Of a stretch of 64,000 nucleotides of DNA, positions 11,880 through 18,359 are shown one piece after another. How positions within the stretch are numbered: position 1 is the first letter of the stretch; every line of letters begins with the position of its first letter. A model generated the notes under the pieces. That model saw only the letters and a list, made by a program, of their open reading frames with translations. It was not told the DNA's origin and did no database searches. This DNA comes from Aureliella helgolandensis (GTDB lineage Bacteria > Planctomycetota > Planctomycetia > Pirellulales > Pirellulaceae): positions 7,928,501-7,992,500 of the forward strand of contig NZ_CP036298.1 in NCBI RefSeq assembly GCF_007752135.1, read 5' to 3'. The position numbers were made by a program, and so were the translations under genes.

Positions 11880-12632
11880 ATGGCGGGTCATTCGCACTGG
11901 GCCGGGATTAAACATAAAAAAGCCCTAGTAGACAGCAAACGCAGTAAACTGTGGTCCAAGCTCTCCAAAGCCATCATCATCGCCGCCAAGCTGGGCGGTG
12001 GTGATCCCGATGGCAACGTCCGACTCCGCACCGCTATCCAAGAGGCCAAATCGCTCAGCCTCCCCAAAGAGAATATCGAACGTGCCATCAAAAAGGGTAC
12101 CGGAGAAATCGATGGCGGGAATGTTGAAGAAATTCTCTACGAAGGCTACGGTCCAGCCGGCGTCGCCATCATGTGCGACATCATGACGGACAATCGCAAT
12201 CGCACGGCACCAGAGGTCCGCAAGATCTTTGACGTGAGCGGTGGCAGCCTGGGCAGCACCGGCTGCGTGGCTTACATCTTCGAACGCAAAGGCTTGATCA
12301 TTATCGACCTGGCCGCCGGCGATGAAGAACAGATCACTGAAATTGCTCTCGAGCACGATGCCCTGGATGTGCTCAACATCCACGGAAAAATGGAGATCTA
12401 CACGCCCCCTGAATTGCTAACCCAGGTCGCTACAGCCTACCAGGACGCAGACATAGCCATGGAACTCAGCGAGGTCACTCGCATTCCCACCAACACGGTA
12501 GAAGTCGACGCCGACGTCGCTGCCACAGTTCTGAAGCTGCTCGAAACACTCGAAGATCATGATGATGTGCAAAACGTCTCCACCAATCTCGATTTCTCCT
12601 GCCCGTCGGTAGCTGCCCTCCTCAACGACTAA
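11880..12632 (+). CDS. YebC/PmpR-family DNA-binding regulatory protein
   Basis: The family N-terminus AGHSHWAGIKHKKALVDSKR and the motif SLPKENIERAIKKGTGE (residues 60-78) identify this 250-residue product, which matches the usual length. The central GYGPAGVAIMCDIMTDNRNRT and VRKIFDVSGGSLGSTGCVAYIF are also conserved. YebC-type proteins were described as transcription regulators. Some members were later shown to relieve ribosome stalling on difficult sequences, and the two roles cannot be told apart here. It starts at ATG 11880, is preceded by 164 bases with no gene and followed by a 365-base spacer, so it is probably monocistronic. Confidence 0.95.
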   Translation: MAGHSHWAGIKHKKALVDSKRSKLWSKLSKAIIIAAKLGGGDPDGNVRLRTAIQEAKSLSLPKENIERAIKKGTGEIDGGNVEEILYEGYGPAGVAIMCDIMTDNRNRTAPEVRKIFDVSGGSLGSTGCVAYIFERKGLIIIDLAAGDEEQITEIALEHDALDVLNIHGKMEIYTPPELLTQVATAYQDADIAMELSEVTRIPTNTVEVDADVAATVLKLLETLEDHDDVQNVSTNLDFSCPSVAALLND

Positions 12633-12997: not shown

Positions 12998-13957
12998 GTG
13001 TTAAAGTTGAACTCCGCGCGAGTTTGCCCTCGCCGCGCATTCACATTGGTAGAGCTGCTGGTCGTCATCGCCATCATTGGCATTCTGGTTGGCTTACTGC
13101 TTCCAGCAGTTCAAGCGGCTCGGGAAGCAGCCAGACGCATGCAGTGCACTAACAACCTCAAACAAATCGGATTGGCTTTTCATAATTTCCAGGACGCCAA
13201 CGGAAAGCTCCCCACGGGAGCTCGCGACGGGAAAGACTCAGCCTTCACCTGCTGCAATGCGACCACCGTTTCAGGCTGGAGCTGGAGCTACAAGATTCTC
13301 CCCTACATCGAGCAAGGCAATGTTTACAACCTGGCCGATGACAACGACTACGGCAATACCCAAAACCTCGTCGCCCGCGCGATTATCCCATCGTACACTT
13401 GCCCTTCCCGTCGCAATGCTCAACTCTGGGGATCGACTCCCTACTTCCGTAGCGACTATGCCGGCAATGCAGGCGAGCGAGTTGGCGGCGGCTCCGATTC
13501 AATCAGCATCGGCAAGCGAGGTGTCGTCGTTCGCACCGAGTCCAACCTCGACATACGACTTGAACAGATCAAAGACGGTACTTCGAACACGATTATGGTC
13601 GGCGAAAAAGCCCTGAACCCAGATCGTTACGGCTCGGACGGCGGAGACAACGAACGTTGGAATAATGCCGGCTGGGATGAAGACGTCATTCGCTGGGGAG
13701 CTGGAAGTGTATCAGGAGTTGAATATGGCATCCCACCGGTACAGGATCTCAACGCTCCTACCGACACTATCGCAGTCGTGGATGCAGGTGGTCGCAGTTG
13801 GACGAACTGGCACCCATTCTTCGGTTCATCGCACGCCGGTGGCTCCAACGCAGTCTTCGGCGACGGATCGGTCCGCTCGATCAGCTACAACATCGATGGA
13901 GAAACAATGCGACGCATCAGTATCGCCAACGACGGTATGCCAGTAGGCGAATTCTAG
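12998..13957 (+). CDS. DUF1559 prepilin-like (type II/IV pseudopilin-type) protein
   Basis: The 319-residue product carries a type IV prepilin signal, RRAFTLVELLVVIAIIGILVG, near residues 12-32. Cleavage would occur before the Phe, and Glu follows four residues later. After the helix (LLPAVQAAREAARRMQC) comes the DUF1559 hallmark NNLKQIGLAFHNFQDANGKLP. The domain ends with the typical GSSHAGGSNAVFGDGSVRSI. Such proteins form large paralogous families in planctomycetes; an extracellular pilus-like or surface role is assumed but not shown. The start is GTG at 12998 with TAGGA in front. A small lipoprotein gene follows 103 bases downstream, a common arrangement for this family. Confidence 0.93.
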   Translation: MLKLNSARVCPRRAFTLVELLVVIAIIGILVGLLLPAVQAAREAARRMQCTNNLKQIGLAFHNFQDANGKLPTGARDGKDSAFTCCNATTVSGWSWSYKILPYIEQGNVYNLADDNDYGNTQNLVARAIIPSYTCPSRRNAQLWGSTPYFRSDYAGNAGERVGGGSDSISIGKRGVVVRTESNLDIRLEQIKDGTSNTIMVGEKALNPDRYGSDGGDNERWNNAGWDEDVIRWGAGSVSGVEYGIPPVQDLNAPTDTIAVVDAGGRSWTNWHPFFGSSHAGGSNAVFGDGSVRSISYNIDGETMRRISIANDGMPVGEF

Positions 13958-14414: not shown

Positions 14415-16094
14415 TTAGCGCTTGGACGTAGCATCGCGACTGAGCCCTAGGCAGCGGTTGATGGCAGCAACCAATCCAAGAATGGAGGCTTTCGTCAATG
14501 AGCGATGTTGGCCGACGCCATACAGCTCGGTTCCCTCTGGAGTCTTCAGCAAAATGTAAGCAGCAGCGGAACTCCCGCTTCCTGCCTCCATGGCATGCTC
14601 TTGGTAATCCTGAATATCATAGGCTAAACCAAATTTCTCGGTCAGAGCGTGCACCAATGCATCGAGCGGGCCATTCCCCTGCCCTACCACTTCATGCGCA
14701 ACCCCTTGATATTCGATCGAAAATTGAAACATCTCCTGATCCTCCAGATCGCATTCCAGAGGCTTATGCGATCGATAGACCAATTCCGCTGGAGGCGACA
14801 CATAGGTTTCGAGAAATTTCTTCCCCACTTCCCTAGCCGGCATTTCCTGCCCAGTAGAGTCAGTAGCTTGTTGCACCACCTGGCTAAAGGCTACTTGCAG
14901 CCGACGCGGTAGCCGGAAGCCCAATTCATTTTCGACCAGATAGGCCACGCCTCCCTTGCCCGATTGCGAGTTGACGCGAATGATCGGGTCATATTGTCGG
15001 CCAATGTCCGCCGGGTCTATCGTCAGGTAGGGAACTTCGAACTGCTCTTGCCCAGATTCCTTCATCGCGTCGTAACCCTTCTTAATCGCATCCTGGTGCG
15101 ATCCCGAAAAGGCGGTAAACACGAGATCTCCGGCGTAGGGTGTCCGTTCATGAACCTTCAGCTCGGTGCAGAACTCCGCTACCCGACGGACCTCTTTGAT
15201 ATTCGAAAAATCCAACCCAGAGTCGATGCCTTGAGTCGTAAGATTCAACGCCATCGTCACGATATCCAAGTTTCCCGTGCGTTCACCATTTCCGAACAGA
15301 GTTCCCTCCACACGGTCGGCTCCGGCCAATAGAGCCAGCTCAGACGCTGCGACTCCAGTTCCGCGGTCGTTGTGCGTATGCAATGAGATGATGGCCCGGT
15401 CGCGGAACTTGAACAACCGACAGAACAATTCAATTTGATCCGCGTACACATTCGGAGTTGCCAACTCGACCGTCGAGGGCAGATTGATAATGGTTTTATT
15501 CTCAATCGTCGGCTGCCAAACGTTGCAAACCGCATCGCAAATTTCTACGGAGAAGTCGATCTCCGTCCCGGTAAAGCTCTCGGGCGAGTACTGGTAGCGC
15601 ACTCGACCATCGCTTACCTGGGAAGCCAACTCATGGATCCGGGTCGCCCCATCGACAGCCAACTTCGTGATCTCAGCTTTATCTGCACGAAAGACAACTC
15701 GCCGCTGCAAGGTCGATGTCGAATTGTACAAATGCACAATCGCATTCTTCGCTCCAGCTATGGCCTCAAAGGTTCGCTCGATCAGTTGCGGCCGCGCCTG
15801 CGTCAGAACCTGGATGGTCACGTCATCCGGAATCAGCTGCTGCTCGATCAGCTCCCGTAGAAAACTAAAATCGGTTTCCGAAGCGGCGGGAAAACCAACC
15901 TCAATCTCCTTGAAACCAATGCGGAGAAGCGTCTTGAACAATTCCATTTTCTTGGCCGGCCCCATCGGGTTGATGAGCGCCTGATTCCCATCGCGCAAAT
16001 CGACGGAACACCACACGGGCGCGTGGCGGATCGTTTGATTGGGCCACGTACGATCTGGCAGACTCAGTGGCTGAAATGGAACGTATTTAGGCAC
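14415..16094 (-). CDS. leuA: 2-isopropylmalate synthase (type 2 LeuA)
   Basis: LeuA condenses acetyl-CoA with 2-oxoisovalerate, the committed step of leucine synthesis. The 559-residue product has the HMGL-like TIM barrel with the metal/substrate motif SVDLRDGNQAL (about residues 31-41), HTHNDRGTG (near 242) and GNGERTGNLDIV. The C-terminal allosteric LeuA dimer domain starts near residue 420 and includes ECDLEDQEMFQFSIEY. The N-terminus YVPFQPLSLPDRTWP and the length are those of the actinobacterial type-2 enzyme rather than the E. coli type (523 residues). The start is GTG at 16094, preceded by AGAGGAT. Upstream on the same strand lie a Leu-rich leader ORF and an intrinsic terminator, pointing to attenuation by charged tRNA-Leu. 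Confidence 0.97.
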   Translation of the reverse strand: MPKYVPFQPLSLPDRTWPNQTIRHAPVWCSVDLRDGNQALINPMGPAKKMELFKTLLRIGFKEIEVGFPAASETDFSFLRELIEQQLIPDDVTIQVLTQARPQLIERTFEAIAGAKNAIVHLYNSTSTLQRRVVFRADKAEITKLAVDGATRIHELASQVSDGRVRYQYSPESFTGTEIDFSVEICDAVCNVWQPTIENKTIINLPSTVELATPNVYADQIELFCRLFKFRDRAIISLHTHNDRGTGVAASELALLAGADRVEGTLFGNGERTGNLDIVTMALNLTTQGIDSGLDFSNIKEVRRVAEFCTELKVHERTPYAGDLVFTAFSGSHQDAIKKGYDAMKESGQEQFEVPYLTIDPADIGRQYDPIIRVNSQSGKGGVAYLVENELGFRLPRRLQVAFSQVVQQATDSTGQEMPAREVGKKFLETYVSPPAELVYRSHKPLECDLEDQEMFQFSIEYQGVAHEVVGQGNGPLDALVHALTEKFGLAYDIQDYQEHAMEAGSGSSAAAYILLKTPEGTELYGVGQHRSLTKASILGLVAAINRCLGLSRDATSKR

Positions 16095-16126: not shown

Positions 16127-16162
16127 AAAAAAAACCCCGAAGCTCGACTCGAGCTTCGGGGT
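16127..16162 (-). terminator. Attenuator terminator in the leuA leader
   Basis: Read on the - strand, ACCCCGAAGCT (16162-16152) and AGCTTCGGGGT (16144-16134) form an 11-bp GC-rich stem around CGAGTCG. It is followed directly by eight T residues (16134-16127). It lies 32 bases before the leuA start codon and 42 bases after the leader-peptide stop, so it would end transcription before leuA. Confidence 0.88.
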
Positions 16163-16204
16163 ATTAGTTGTTCTAAACTATCCGATTCTATGCAGATCGA
16201 ACCC

Positions 16205-16276
16205 CTACCGCTCGCAATCAGCGAGAGCTAGCAAAGCAAGCCCGGAAAGGAGGAGGTTGGAGCTGGTGAAATTCAC
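16205..16276 (-). CDS. Leucine-rich leader peptide of leuA
   Basis: A 23-codon open frame starts with GTG at 16276 and ends with TAG at 16207-16205. Seven of the 23 residues are leucine: a run of three at residues 8-10, then residues 13, 15, 16 and 18. They are encoded by CTC, CTC, CTT, CTT, TTG, CTA and CTC. A GAAG element sits about nine bases upstream, and a stop codon in the same frame lies just before it. The end of the ORF can fold into a small hairpin (CTCGC/GCGAG, 16225-16211). The stop region contains GGGGT, which is complementary to the ACCCC at the base of the downstream terminator. This is the layout of ribosome-mediated attenuation. Translation has not been shown. Confidence 0.75.
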   Translation of the reverse strand: MNFTSSNLLLSGLALLALADCER

Positions 16277-16348
16277 GACAAAATCTTCGATTCAAGGGTT
16301 AGCCGGGTACCATGACAATCGGTGCATTCCAGGGTATCCACCAGAACA

Positions 16349-16376
16349 ATTATCGTCAAGACAATTTGTGGAGCAA
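16349..16376 (-). promoter_or_regulatory. Possible promoter of the leuA leader
   Basis: On the - strand TTGCTC (16376-16371) and GATAAT (16354-16349) are 16 bases apart. The -10 box matches the consensus at five of six positions, the -35 box poorly. An overlapping TTGACG (16358-16353) with TACCCT is an alternative. Either would give a transcript containing the leader ORF and terminator. Confidence 0.35.
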
Positions 16377-16398
16377 TAGCCCAAGTCGACAACTAATC

Positions 16399-16616
16399 GG
16401 AATCCGCCGCATAAGCAAGGAAGAGTCGTCGCCGCTACCAAGTGGTCCAAGAACTACCCTCACGGCAAAACTAAACGCGCTCCCCAAACCAGCAAACCAG
16501 TACGACCTAAAAAATTGCAACCCGCCGCGTAAGCAAGGAAGAATCGTCGCCGCTACCAAGTGGTCCGATGACGACCTCCACAGCAATGCTGAAAAGTTCC
16601 TAGTTCAACGACGCCT
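16399..16616 (+). repeat. Two diverged copies of the ~120-bp intergenic repeat
   Basis: Two units 118 bases apart (from 16399 and 16517) share CCGCCGC(A/G)TAAGCAAGGAAGA, CGTCGCCGCTACCAAGTGGTCC and flanking positions. They align along most of their length with the tandem units at 28801-29384 (for example GCAACCCGCCGCGTAAGCAA, CCTCCACAGCAA, GGCAAAACTAAACGCGCTC against AGCAAAACTCAAAACGCTC). An open frame of 143 codons (16312-16743) crosses both copies and overlaps the 3' end of pyk; I regard it as spurious. Confidence 0.8.
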
Positions 16617-16725: not shown

Positions 16726-18192
16726 TCAGGCGTCCTTCACTAGAGGATCGCCACTCACCTCATGCACCACAAGCAAATTGTGGGTATTGTTGATCACGCC
16801 AGTTCCCGTAACGAAGACGACATGATCGCCAACATTTAAGAAATGCTGCGCCCGCCCCCACTGAATCACCTCTTCGATCAACTTCCGAGGATCCTCAAAC
16901 GACTCGACCAAGTGGGGCATAATACCCCAAAACAGGCACATACGCCTGAGCGTGGCCAAATTACTACTCACACCTAAGGTCGGCACAAAATTGCGTTGTT
17001 TGGCTTTTACCCAAGCAGTTCCTCCAGAACGACTCGCCACGACAACCAACTTGGCATTGATGGCTTCCGCAATATTCGCCGCACTATGGGTCACAGCCGA
17101 AGTAATGGGATGCACCCGGTCGGACTTTCGGGCTCGCCCACCCGGCGGAGAGTCCTTTAACAGCTGTTCGGTATGGAGCATGATGCGATCCATCGTATCG
17201 ACCGCCAGCACCGGGTACTTTCCGATCGCCGTCTCGCCACTCAACATACATGCATCCGCACCGTCCAGAATCGCGTTAGCCACATCGCTTGCTTCTGCAC
17301 GCGTTGGCCGTGAATTTTCGTGCATGCTTTCTAGCATCTGCGTAGCGACAATCACGGGCTTCATTCTGTCTTTGCAGACTTGAATAATTCGCTTTTGGGC
17401 AACCGGGGTTTCGGCAACATCGATTTCGACCCCCAGGTCACCACGGGCTACCATGATTCCATCCGATGCTTCGACGATAGCCTCTAAGCATTCGAGTGCT
17501 TCGCGTTTCTCAATCTTGGCAATGACTAATGCAGTGGAGTCGAGGGATGCCAACAGATCCTTGAGCGATAAAACATCCTGAGGAGTGCGGACAAAGCTCA
17601 GACTGATAAAATCGATTTCATTGCGTGCCCCCCACATTGCATTTTCGATATCCTCTGGCCGCATGGATGAAACACTCAGAGTGACGCCAGGCAAATTCAC
17701 CCCTTGCCGACTCCGCACGGTACCAGCGGTCAACACCTTACAACCTGCAGTATCCTTTGTCTTCGACGTGACCAATAACGAGATGATTCCATCGGCGAGC
17801 ATGATGCGATCGCCAACTTTGACCTCATCGAGCAGCTTTCCGTAACTGCAACACAACTGATGGGGAAGTTCAGAAACGCTTCCGCGGACGAACTCAACCA
17901 CATCCCCCACTTCCAACTCTAGCGCTTCGACGGCCAGCTGGCCCAATCGAATTTTGGGCCCCGACAAGTCCAGCAACACAGCCACTGGAAAGTTGGTGAT
18001 TACCCGCACTTGTCGCACCATATCGAGGACCTTCTCGAAATCTGGTATCTTGCCGTGGCCGGTGTTGATCCGAAAGATGTCCACTCCATGCTCTACCAAC
18101 TCCACCAACTTCTCGACCGAGTTGCAGGCAGGTCCCACCGTGGCAACAATCTTGGTACGCGCTTCATTCAAATTGGGACGTGGAGCATCCAT
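16726..18192 (-). CDS. pyk: Pyruvate kinase
   Basis: Pyruvate kinase makes pyruvate and ATP from phosphoenolpyruvate in the last glycolytic step. The product (488 residues from the ATG at 18192) shows TKIVATVGPAC at the N-terminus, LDLSGPKIRLG and SLSFVRTPQDV. The catalytic-Lys motif is VIAKIEKREAL, the metal site MVARGDLGVE, and the AMP/phosphoregulatory side ATQMLESM with RAEASDVANAILDGADA and LSGETAIGKYPV. The first phosphate-binding motif reads RINTGHG where RxNxSHG is usual, a variant rather than a loss. A GTG at 18201 is in frame, but the ATG has the better-placed AGAAAG. It is divergent from the SDR gene, with a 167-base shared upstream region. Confidence 0.95.
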   Translation of the reverse strand: MDAPRPNLNEARTKIVATVGPACNSVEKLVELVEHGVDIFRINTGHGKIPDFEKVLDMVRQVRVITNFPVAVLLDLSGPKIRLGQLAVEALELEVGDVVEFVRGSVSELPHQLCCSYGKLLDEVKVGDRIMLADGIISLLVTSKTKDTAGCKVLTAGTVRSRQGVNLPGVTLSVSSMRPEDIENAMWGARNEIDFISLSFVRTPQDVLSLKDLLASLDSTALVIAKIEKREALECLEAIVEASDGIMVARGDLGVEIDVAETPVAQKRIIQVCKDRMKPVIVATQMLESMHENSRPTRAEASDVANAILDGADACMLSGETAIGKYPVLAVDTMDRIMLHTEQLLKDSPPGGRARKSDRVHPITSAVTHSAANIAEAINAKLVVVASRSGGTAWVKAKQRNFVPTLGVSSNLATLRRMCLFWGIMPHLVESFEDPRKLIEEVIQWGRAQHFLNVGDHVVFVTGTGVINNTHNLLVVHEVSGDPLVKDA

Positions 18193-18359
18193 AGAATTCA
18201 CTTTCTGGCTTTCTTTTCATCAAAACGAACCGATTCGCCGTACTGCTAGAACATCGTTTTAGTTCATTGGATTAAATTCATACAGTACGTCCTGCCCCCC
18301 GTCGCCCCCACTCTGCCTCCTCCCTCGTCACTCACTCCTCTCACCCCCCGAAGATTTCT

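Follow-up and report, generated by a model that had tools for sequence, protein, structure and literature searches.

A predicted leucine leader-peptide attenuator upstream of leuA in Aureliella helgolandensis and its conservation in Pirellulales

Introduction

The enteric attenuators leuL, ilvL, trpL and hisL are of the classical leader-peptide type. Attenuation of this kind also occurs beyond Proteobacteria and Actinobacteria, as the accessible text on the hisS and hisZ leader peptides of Firmicutes attests (Naville and Gautheret 2010, PMC2965389), and the cysS leader of Rhodobacterales, uORFC-8-2, is described in the available part of its source as a ribosome-mediated attenuator found by comparison (PMC8632094). 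In Actinobacteria, an ORF with Leu codons precedes leuA in what has been termed the LEU element, whose mechanism is given as unknown in the available sections of the report (Seliverstov et al. 2005, PMC1262725). For Planctomycetes, the accessible portion of one study reports that leader genes peak in frequency near start codons, an observation about re-initiation and not about attenuation (PMC4833913), and a spatial separation of transcription and translation has been reported for Gemmata obscuriglobus (Gottshall et al. 2014, as cited in the available text of PMC5394234 and PMC5287468). The open-access literature searched, which omits most subscription papers, describes no planctomycete attenuator: none appears in the available portions of PMC1262725, PMC2965389, PMC8632094, PMC4833913, PMC5394234, PMC8567305 and PMC5287468, and neither the word Planctomycet nor the word leuA occurs in the accessible main text of PMC2965389.

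Here we analyse the leader of the leuA gene in a stretch of 64,000 nucleotides from Aureliella helgolandensis, referred to as the window. A preliminary description of this DNA, made from the letters alone, proposed a ribosome-mediated attenuator for leuA with a leucine leader peptide and knew of no described example in Planctomycetota; none was met in the literature searched here either, and conservation, covariation and folding with a ribosome in place support the proposed attenuation. The recognition that leuA is a replacement gene, the spread of the leader and the full extent of the antiterminator go beyond that description. We put at about 0.92 the probability that the leader is a classical leucine attenuator, old in Pirellulales, which was kept in place while the native LeuA of the leuA_bact type became one of the leuA_yeast type. 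This reading draws on the anatomy, conservation and covariation of the leader, on its mutually exclusive structures and their placement with respect to the codons, on the synteny of the locus and on the homology of the leaders, all obtained by computation.

Structure of the leader

The putatively controlled gene, leuA, lies at 14415..16094 on the minus strand and encodes a 2-isopropylmalate synthase of 559 aa and of the leuA_yeast type (TIGR00970; 745.5 bits, cut-off 697.4), which replaces the native leuA_bact type. The next long conserved genes downstream, at 12998-13957 and 11880-12632, are on the opposite strand, and the controlled unit looks like leuA alone. A predicted promoter was read from the sequence at 16331..16359 on the minus strand, with TTGACG at 16359-16354, a spacer of 17 nt and TACCCT at 16336-16331. 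The pattern TTGACN-17 nt-TANNNT was found 5' of the leader ORF in 47 of the 62 leaders compiled below, where the spacing between elements resembling -35 and -10 boxes peaks sharply at 17 and every other spacing from 10 to 25 occurs in at most 5 leaders. A scan with the sigma-70 consensus scored no promoter at the window leader because its -10 hexamer, TACCCT, is a weak match.

Farther 5' of the promoter, at 16395-16595, the window holds two copies of a dispersed repeat about 120 bases apart with the core ACCACTTGGTAGCGGCGACGA. A 701-base query containing the repeat matched the genome 81 times, its own place included, and some of the matches are tandem arrays with a period of about 121 (for example G000:C1:2330589-2331220).

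The leader peptide ORF occupies 16205..16276 on the minus strand, from a GTG at 16276-16274 to a TAG at 16207-16205, and encodes MNFTSSNLLLSGLALLALADCER. Its 23 sense codons include seven for Leu (codons 8, 9, 10, 13, 15, 16 and 18), three of them consecutive, exactly as the preliminary description had read them; no clear Shine-Dalgarno sequence was seen before the GTG. The small hairpin that had been noticed at the end of the ORF is likewise present: this pause (1:2) hairpin at 16211..16225, minus strand, has the sequence CTCGC-TGATT-GCGAG, in which 16225-16221 pairs with 16215-16211, and it is apparent from the sequence, from RNAfold and from covariation. In the RNAfold structure of the ribosome-free transcript, AACCTC of codons 7-8 (16253..16258, minus strand) is the 5' strand of a long 1:2 hairpin and sequesters GGGGTT (16205-16200).

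Between the ORF and leuA lies an intrinsic terminator (16127..16162, minus strand; -24.3 kcal/mol) with a 13-bp stem, a loop of 3 nt and a run of eight T. It reads ACCCCGAAGCTCG-AGT-CGAGCTTCGGGGT at 16162-16134, with the T run at 16134-16127 on the minus strand and 32 bases between this run and the leuA GTG at 16094. The eight T and the 32-base gap had been reported correctly; the stem, previously put at 11 bp, has 13 pairs by both pattern scan and RNAfold. Its 5' arm, region 3 (ACCCCGAAGCTCG, 16150..16162, minus strand), is common to the terminator and to the predicted antiterminator. The antiterminator 5' half, region 2 (16201..16214, minus strand), consists of CGAGC at 16214-16210 and GGGGT at 16205-16201, and the pairing of the latter begins at the G of the stop codon TAG. 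The complementarity of GGGGT to the terminator 5' arm had been recognized before; the full structure is larger, since CGAGC also pairs with GCUCG at 16154-16150, and the antiterminator therefore comprises two helices, in which CGAGC-GGUA-GGGGU pairs with ACCCC-GAA-GCUCG.

A known RNA family or a T-box was considered and rejected, as Rfam 15 gave no match at the gathering score anywhere in the window, leader and T-box families included. At E<=10 the leader region had 10 Rfam matches, none near its cut-off; the best was the trpB motif with 25.1 bits against 59. No tRNA genes were found in the window.

Folding and proposed mechanism

The window leader was folded with a ribosome that masked the whole RNA as far as 12 nt beyond the A-site codon's first base. 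As long as the 3' arm of the terminator is absent, the antiterminator is the best fold with the A site at Leu codon 8, 13, 16 or 18, and a ribosome at the stop codon makes it impossible. It is likewise absent from the ribosome-free fold, in which AACCUC of codons 7-8 is paired to GGGGUU. The mutually exclusive antiterminator and terminator that the preliminary description had expected were thus recovered by RNAfold once a ribosome was placed on the transcript. After completion of the 3' arm, every ribosome state has the terminator in its best fold, and the switch must therefore be kinetic. A kinetic choice between folds also holds for known attenuators.

In the mechanism that we propose, RNA polymerase would start upstream of the leader ORF with a ribosome trailing it. 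With ample Leu-tRNA the ribosome would get to the TAG, where its footprint would mask GGGGU; no antiterminator could then form, the terminator (3:4) would fold and leuA would stay untranscribed. With scarce Leu-tRNA the ribosome would stall at the Leu codons, opening the pause hairpin and freeing CGAGC and GGGGU to pair with ACCCC and GCUCG of the terminator 5' arm (2:3), which would permit read-through into leuA. If no ribosome were present at all, the 1:2 hairpin would hide GGGGUU and the terminator would win. Translation of the leader ORF, stalling, read-through and the role of leucine as the signal are what we infer from these structures.

Conservation in Pirellulales

The leader was sought upstream of leuA in 80 genomes, those of the window and its relatives, and in the named relatives K23_9 and Prado168. 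Five genomes (G003, G004, G030, G031 and G047) were left out for want of a usable native leuA start and one (G052) contributed two native copies, which gave 78 leuA upstreams. A match required an ORF enriched in Leu (binomial p<=0.02) whose end preceded a terminator by 15-65 nt, and 57 of the 78 upstreams matched. Five leaders below these thresholds (X_G013, X_G001, G020, G017 and G058) were added by hand, bringing the Leu-rich ORF, the G run at the stop codon and the terminator to 62 of the 78 and bearing out the expectation that such leaders would recur among Pirellulales. In the alignment of the 62 leaders (A1), the stop codon, the G run that follows it and ACCCCGAGGC...GCCTCGGGGTTTTTT are conspicuous. 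The 16 upstreams outside this set comprise two in which the leader lies farther upstream (G033 and G064), one cut by a contig end so that it starts 106 bases before the leuA match (X_G014) and 13 in which the scan criteria found no leader. The leader is thus the rule in most sampled members of the order and not a single case. In one genome (G010; L018/L109), about 290 bases separate the terminator from leuA, compared with 32 in the window.

Replacement of leuA

The ancestral leuA locus is marked by two neighbours, a pyruvate kinase gene upstream (16726..18201, minus strand) and a gene of the YebC/PmpR family downstream (11880..12632, plus strand). Five congeners (G002, G005, G007, G008 and G009) carry at the equivalent locus a LeuA that is 27-28% identical to that of the window, and the one in G005 is of the leuA_bact type (TIGR00973). 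In all five, pyruvate kinase and/or YebC adjoin the native leuA, and more genes are common where the contig reaches. The same pyk-yebC locus holds a leuA_yeast type in the window genome and in G010, G011, G001 and G014. The foreign type was found in 7 of the 15 genomes of the window genus, and no native LeuA matched in the window genome at E<=1e-120. In another congener, G006, the native leuA sits outside the pyk-yebC locus.

A branch with an SH-aLRT of 100 separates the nine foreign LeuA from all others in the tree, which does not resolve their sister group. The foreign leuA of four genomes (G013, G012, K23_9 and Prado168) comes with its leader and without pyruvate kinase or YebC within the 11.5-13.5 kb read, and the LeuA of these genomes fall inside the foreign clade, among or beside the members from the pyk-yebC locus, with fork supports of 87-94. 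This pattern fits a single replacement in place followed by later moves of the foreign leuA. An Opitutaceae record is a doubtful candidate for the donor, its 64% match covering only 275 residues and its place in the tree being outside the window clade; Nocardia and Nonomuraea plasmid records carry LeuA about 55% identical to that of the window. Another family of the order includes a genome (G063; L022) that has both a native LeuA and one of the leuA_yeast type grouping with Verrucomicrobiota, the latter best read as a separate acquisition.

Leader and foreign leuA could have been acquired jointly by horizontal transfer, in which case the leader would not be the retained native one. Leu-containing uORFs do precede leuA_yeast-type genes elsewhere, and two leaders of foreign genes (X_G013 and X_G011) contain CTTCGACTT, a sequence similar to the LRLT uORF of Verrucomicrobiota described below. 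Against this, the window leader is nearest to leaders of native leuA. When ORF and spacer were aligned to the window leader with the terminator excluded (1000 shuffles, maximum 24), the native leader of G005 scored 56 and that of G007, also native, 42, whereas the best leader of a foreign leuA (X_G013) reached 32; X_G011 and G045 followed with 25, and the leaders of some congeners, such as G008 and G009 (score 20), aligned no better than shuffles. The locus, moreover, is unchanged between native and foreign leuA, their leaders have GCGAG, TAGGGGTTCG and the terminator motifs in common, and the leader is widespread before native leuA across Pirellulales. We regard joint transfer as unlikely. 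Because the closest leader is the native one of G005 and the locus is unchanged, we take the leader to be native and the enzyme to be the newcomer.

Leaders elsewhere in the phylum and beyond

A native LeuA match was present in 113 genomes of the phylum survey, 70 of which were examined (30 + 40 loci), and a single one of these 70 lacked the anchor motif. The leader layout (p<=0.05) was present in 29 of the remaining 69 planctomycete leuA upstreams, which include two already in the set of 78 (G032 and G064). It occurs in all 16 examined genomes of a family in the same class (f21) and in single members of f50, f52, f53, f66, f77, f84 and f104, with weak p in some of these; it was absent from the examined upstreams of f31 (0/8), f63 (0/6), f67 (0/3) and f70 (0/2).

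A covariance model of the leader matched 22 places in the window genome at E<=10, with the leuA leader first (E 3e-12) and a leader of aroF, the gene for 3-deoxy-7-phosphoheptulonate synthase, second (E 3e-5). Inspection by eye of the ten best of these 22 matches identified a leader ORF at leuA, aroF and tuf. Four others (L187, L190, L191 and L193) were rejected as attenuators because each has the appearance of a tRNA with a terminator behind it, and three (L188, L192 and L194) because they look like other terminators. The match before the gene for elongation factor Tu (L189; G000:C1:5541563-5541659) has a short ORF rich in Asn and Ser, MNHFNNSQSNSNDSSDDW, followed by a terminator directly before the gene.

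The aroF leader of the window genome (G000:C1:8289812-8289917; L186) encodes the peptide MNNYSSTYSFSFAPQFTTGAEGST. Among 30 aroF loci taken from 55 genomes with a match (relatives' loci L226-L254), 26, that of the window genome included, have upstream of the gene a terminator preceded by an ORF enriched in Phe, Tyr or Trp (p<=0.05), for example MRNYFFNYFFTFRPLFTCGAEKST. A scan for leaders of the aroF type in the 597 kb of control sequence described below returned no matches. When halves of the aroF antiterminator were permuted among species, the mean energy rose from -21.65 to -18.39 and 0 of 20000 permutations were as low. The aroF leader would thus represent a second, aromatic type of attenuator analogous to the leuA leader.

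Upstreams of leuA in Verrucomicrobiota show a different leader, with a uORF such as MRNNAQALRLT*; the stretch CTNCGACTTA is kept at the nucleotide level in 14 of 30 (L014, L061, L066, L067, L069, L073, L074, L078-L081, L084, L087 and L088), a count from which L076 was left out as it lacks the anchor motif. The conserved hairpin GACGCACGATC...GATCGTGCGTC lies closely 3' of the LRLT uORF, and LRLT uORFs of a similar kind are found in L047 and L049-L051. Six Verrucomicrobiota leader loci were searched against Rfam and gave no match. The fixed CGA-CTT in these leaders suggests more than the counting of Leu codons. By eye, L062, L063, L064, L068, L082 and L086, also from Verrucomicrobiota, have uORFs that end in LLP or a similar sequence and place their stop codon in the loop of a hairpin resembling CTCCCC/GGGGAG; at least in L064, a terminator-like hairpin comes after it.

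Leader codons

In the last 20 codons of the 62 leaders, Leu accounts for 35% of codons in frame compared with 8% and 3% in the other frames, a contrast that is partly built in because the ORFs were chosen as Leu-rich; the statistical weight rests with the control scan described below. By position, Leu peaks at codon -8 (73%), ranges from 44 to 73% across codons -6 to -14 and falls to 3-21% in the last five codons, which make up the pause hairpin and the antiterminator. Across a set of 89 leaders, the share of Leu among residues is 38%, and that of the next most frequent one is 7.7%. With no other residue enriched, it is the codons that are conserved and not the peptide. A special LRL motif in the leaders of Planctomycetia was considered and found unconvincing, with 15 LRL in the 89 leaders; the Arg codon is CGA in 8 of these 15, compared with 42 of 150 Arg codons overall.

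The Leu-rich ORF could act through its nascent peptide or through free leucine, as an arrest peptide, instead of through the charging of Leu-tRNA. The conserved LRL motif in the Verrucomicrobiota leaders of related leuA indicates that leuA leaders can hold more than Leu codons. The planctomycete leaders speak against an arrest peptide, in that only Leu is enriched among the 89, its positions are scattered over codons -6 to -14 and the aroF leaders repeat the layout with Phe, Tyr and Trp, which makes this alternative very unlikely.

Covariation and control scan

The two halves of the antiterminator fit each other within a species better than between species. Duplexes of a leader's own halves average -20.7 kcal/mol compared with -16.65 when halves are dealt among species, and 0 of 20000 permutations were as low, a comparison in which some effect of relatedness remains, as it does in that for the terminator (-21.5 compared with -15.1). 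The antiterminator result held both for the 48 native leaders from beyond the window genus (0/20000) and for the other 14, which come from that genus and from K23_9 and Prado168 (19/20000). Weak antiterminators occur in X_G010 (-9.8 kcal/mol) and G025 (-9.0 kcal/mol).

Among the 62 leaders, 91.5% of terminator cells are paired, with 62 doubly changed cells compared with 14.3 in shuffles; the corresponding figures are 74.1%, 37 and 21.4 for the antiterminator and 61.8%, 46 and 23.0 for the pause hairpin, and 0 of 500 shuffles were as high for any of the three. Pairing and covariation score fall in all three elements when the partner is slid by 1-3 columns, and the doubly changed cells exceed those of every slid version. 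When counted as pairs that show a double change at all, the antiterminator (221/500) and the pause hairpin (326/500) are not above shuffles, so support for these two lies in the cells, the percentage paired and the covariation score.

These results bear on a further alternative, namely control by a protein or at the level of translation, as might apply to the LEU element, with the terminator being incidental. Actinobacterial leuA is likewise preceded by a Leu ORF, and the available text on the LEU element describes a pseudoknot paired to the Shine-Dalgarno box of leuA, with other elements of an attenuator missing (PMC1262725). The planctomycete leader, in contrast, has a terminator with a T run and a covarying antiterminator, and we consider control of the former kind highly improbable here.

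The control scan covered 597,262 bases, taken from the window and from 19 fetched loci on both strands. At p<=0.02 it returned 17 matches, 15 of which share the terminator of a leuA leader already counted. Of the two others, one is probably the leader of the native leuA of G033, since it is found about 590 bases upstream of that gene and on its strand; the second is unrelated. At p<=0.05, four places other than the counted leuA leaders matched. That the ORF arose by chance before an ordinary terminator of an upstream transcript might be entertained for the window by itself, where its Leu content taken singly departs only moderately from expectation (binomial p 5.8e-3 at 10% Leu) and the upstream pyruvate kinase gene is on the leuA strand, but the control scan leads us to reject this and conservation over the 78 upstreams and covariation contradict it, leaving it a negligible likelihood.

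Comparison with known systems

As attenuation needs a ribosome close behind RNA polymerase, conservation of the leader would argue at the sequence level that transcription and translation are coupled in these planctomycetes. We think it rather probable that attenuation is general for amino-acid synthesis in Planctomycetia (leuA and aroF) and requires such coupling, and that the attenuator, as a heritable unit in its own right, outlived its enzyme, capturing a foreign isozyme in place. If true, this would mean tight transcription-translation coupling in a phylum for which spatial separation was claimed. Exchange of leuA beneath a retained attenuator would also provide a clean natural experiment in which regulation was kept and the enzyme changed (27-28% identity). 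The finding gains in interest because the leader is common to most sampled Pirellulales, has an aromatic counterpart and appears to have survived a gene replacement.

The planctomycete leader has the components of the enteric leuL, ilvL, trpL and hisL attenuators. A short ORF rich in the control codon, here Leu, precedes a gene of the pathway, a leucine-biosynthetic one, and carries a pause hairpin; an intrinsic terminator with its T run lies between this ORF and leuA; and a predicted antiterminator, based on covariation and folding, shares an arm with the terminator and could be blocked by a ribosome at the stop codon. Unlike in the enteric attenuators, region 2 falls on the stop codon itself, and the unit looks like leuA alone and not a leuABCD operon.

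Compared with the LEU element of Actinobacteria, in which a Leu-codon ORF also precedes leuA, the planctomycete leader possesses a terminator and an antiterminator in place of a pseudoknot and a pairing to the leuA Shine-Dalgarno box with no obvious terminator, to go by the accessible text (PMC1262725). Like the hisS and hisZ leaders as presented in the available text (PMC2965389), it places leader-peptide attenuation in a further phylum, with a different gene and phylum in each case, and it differs from uORFC-8-2, for which the accessible part of the source gives Cys codons and an alphaproteobacterial range (PMC8632094). Classical leader-peptide attenuation, reported from Proteobacteria, Actinobacteria and Firmicutes in the literature searched, would now extend to Planctomycetota, where the mechanism is a known one and the leucine attenuator is, as far as we have searched, new.
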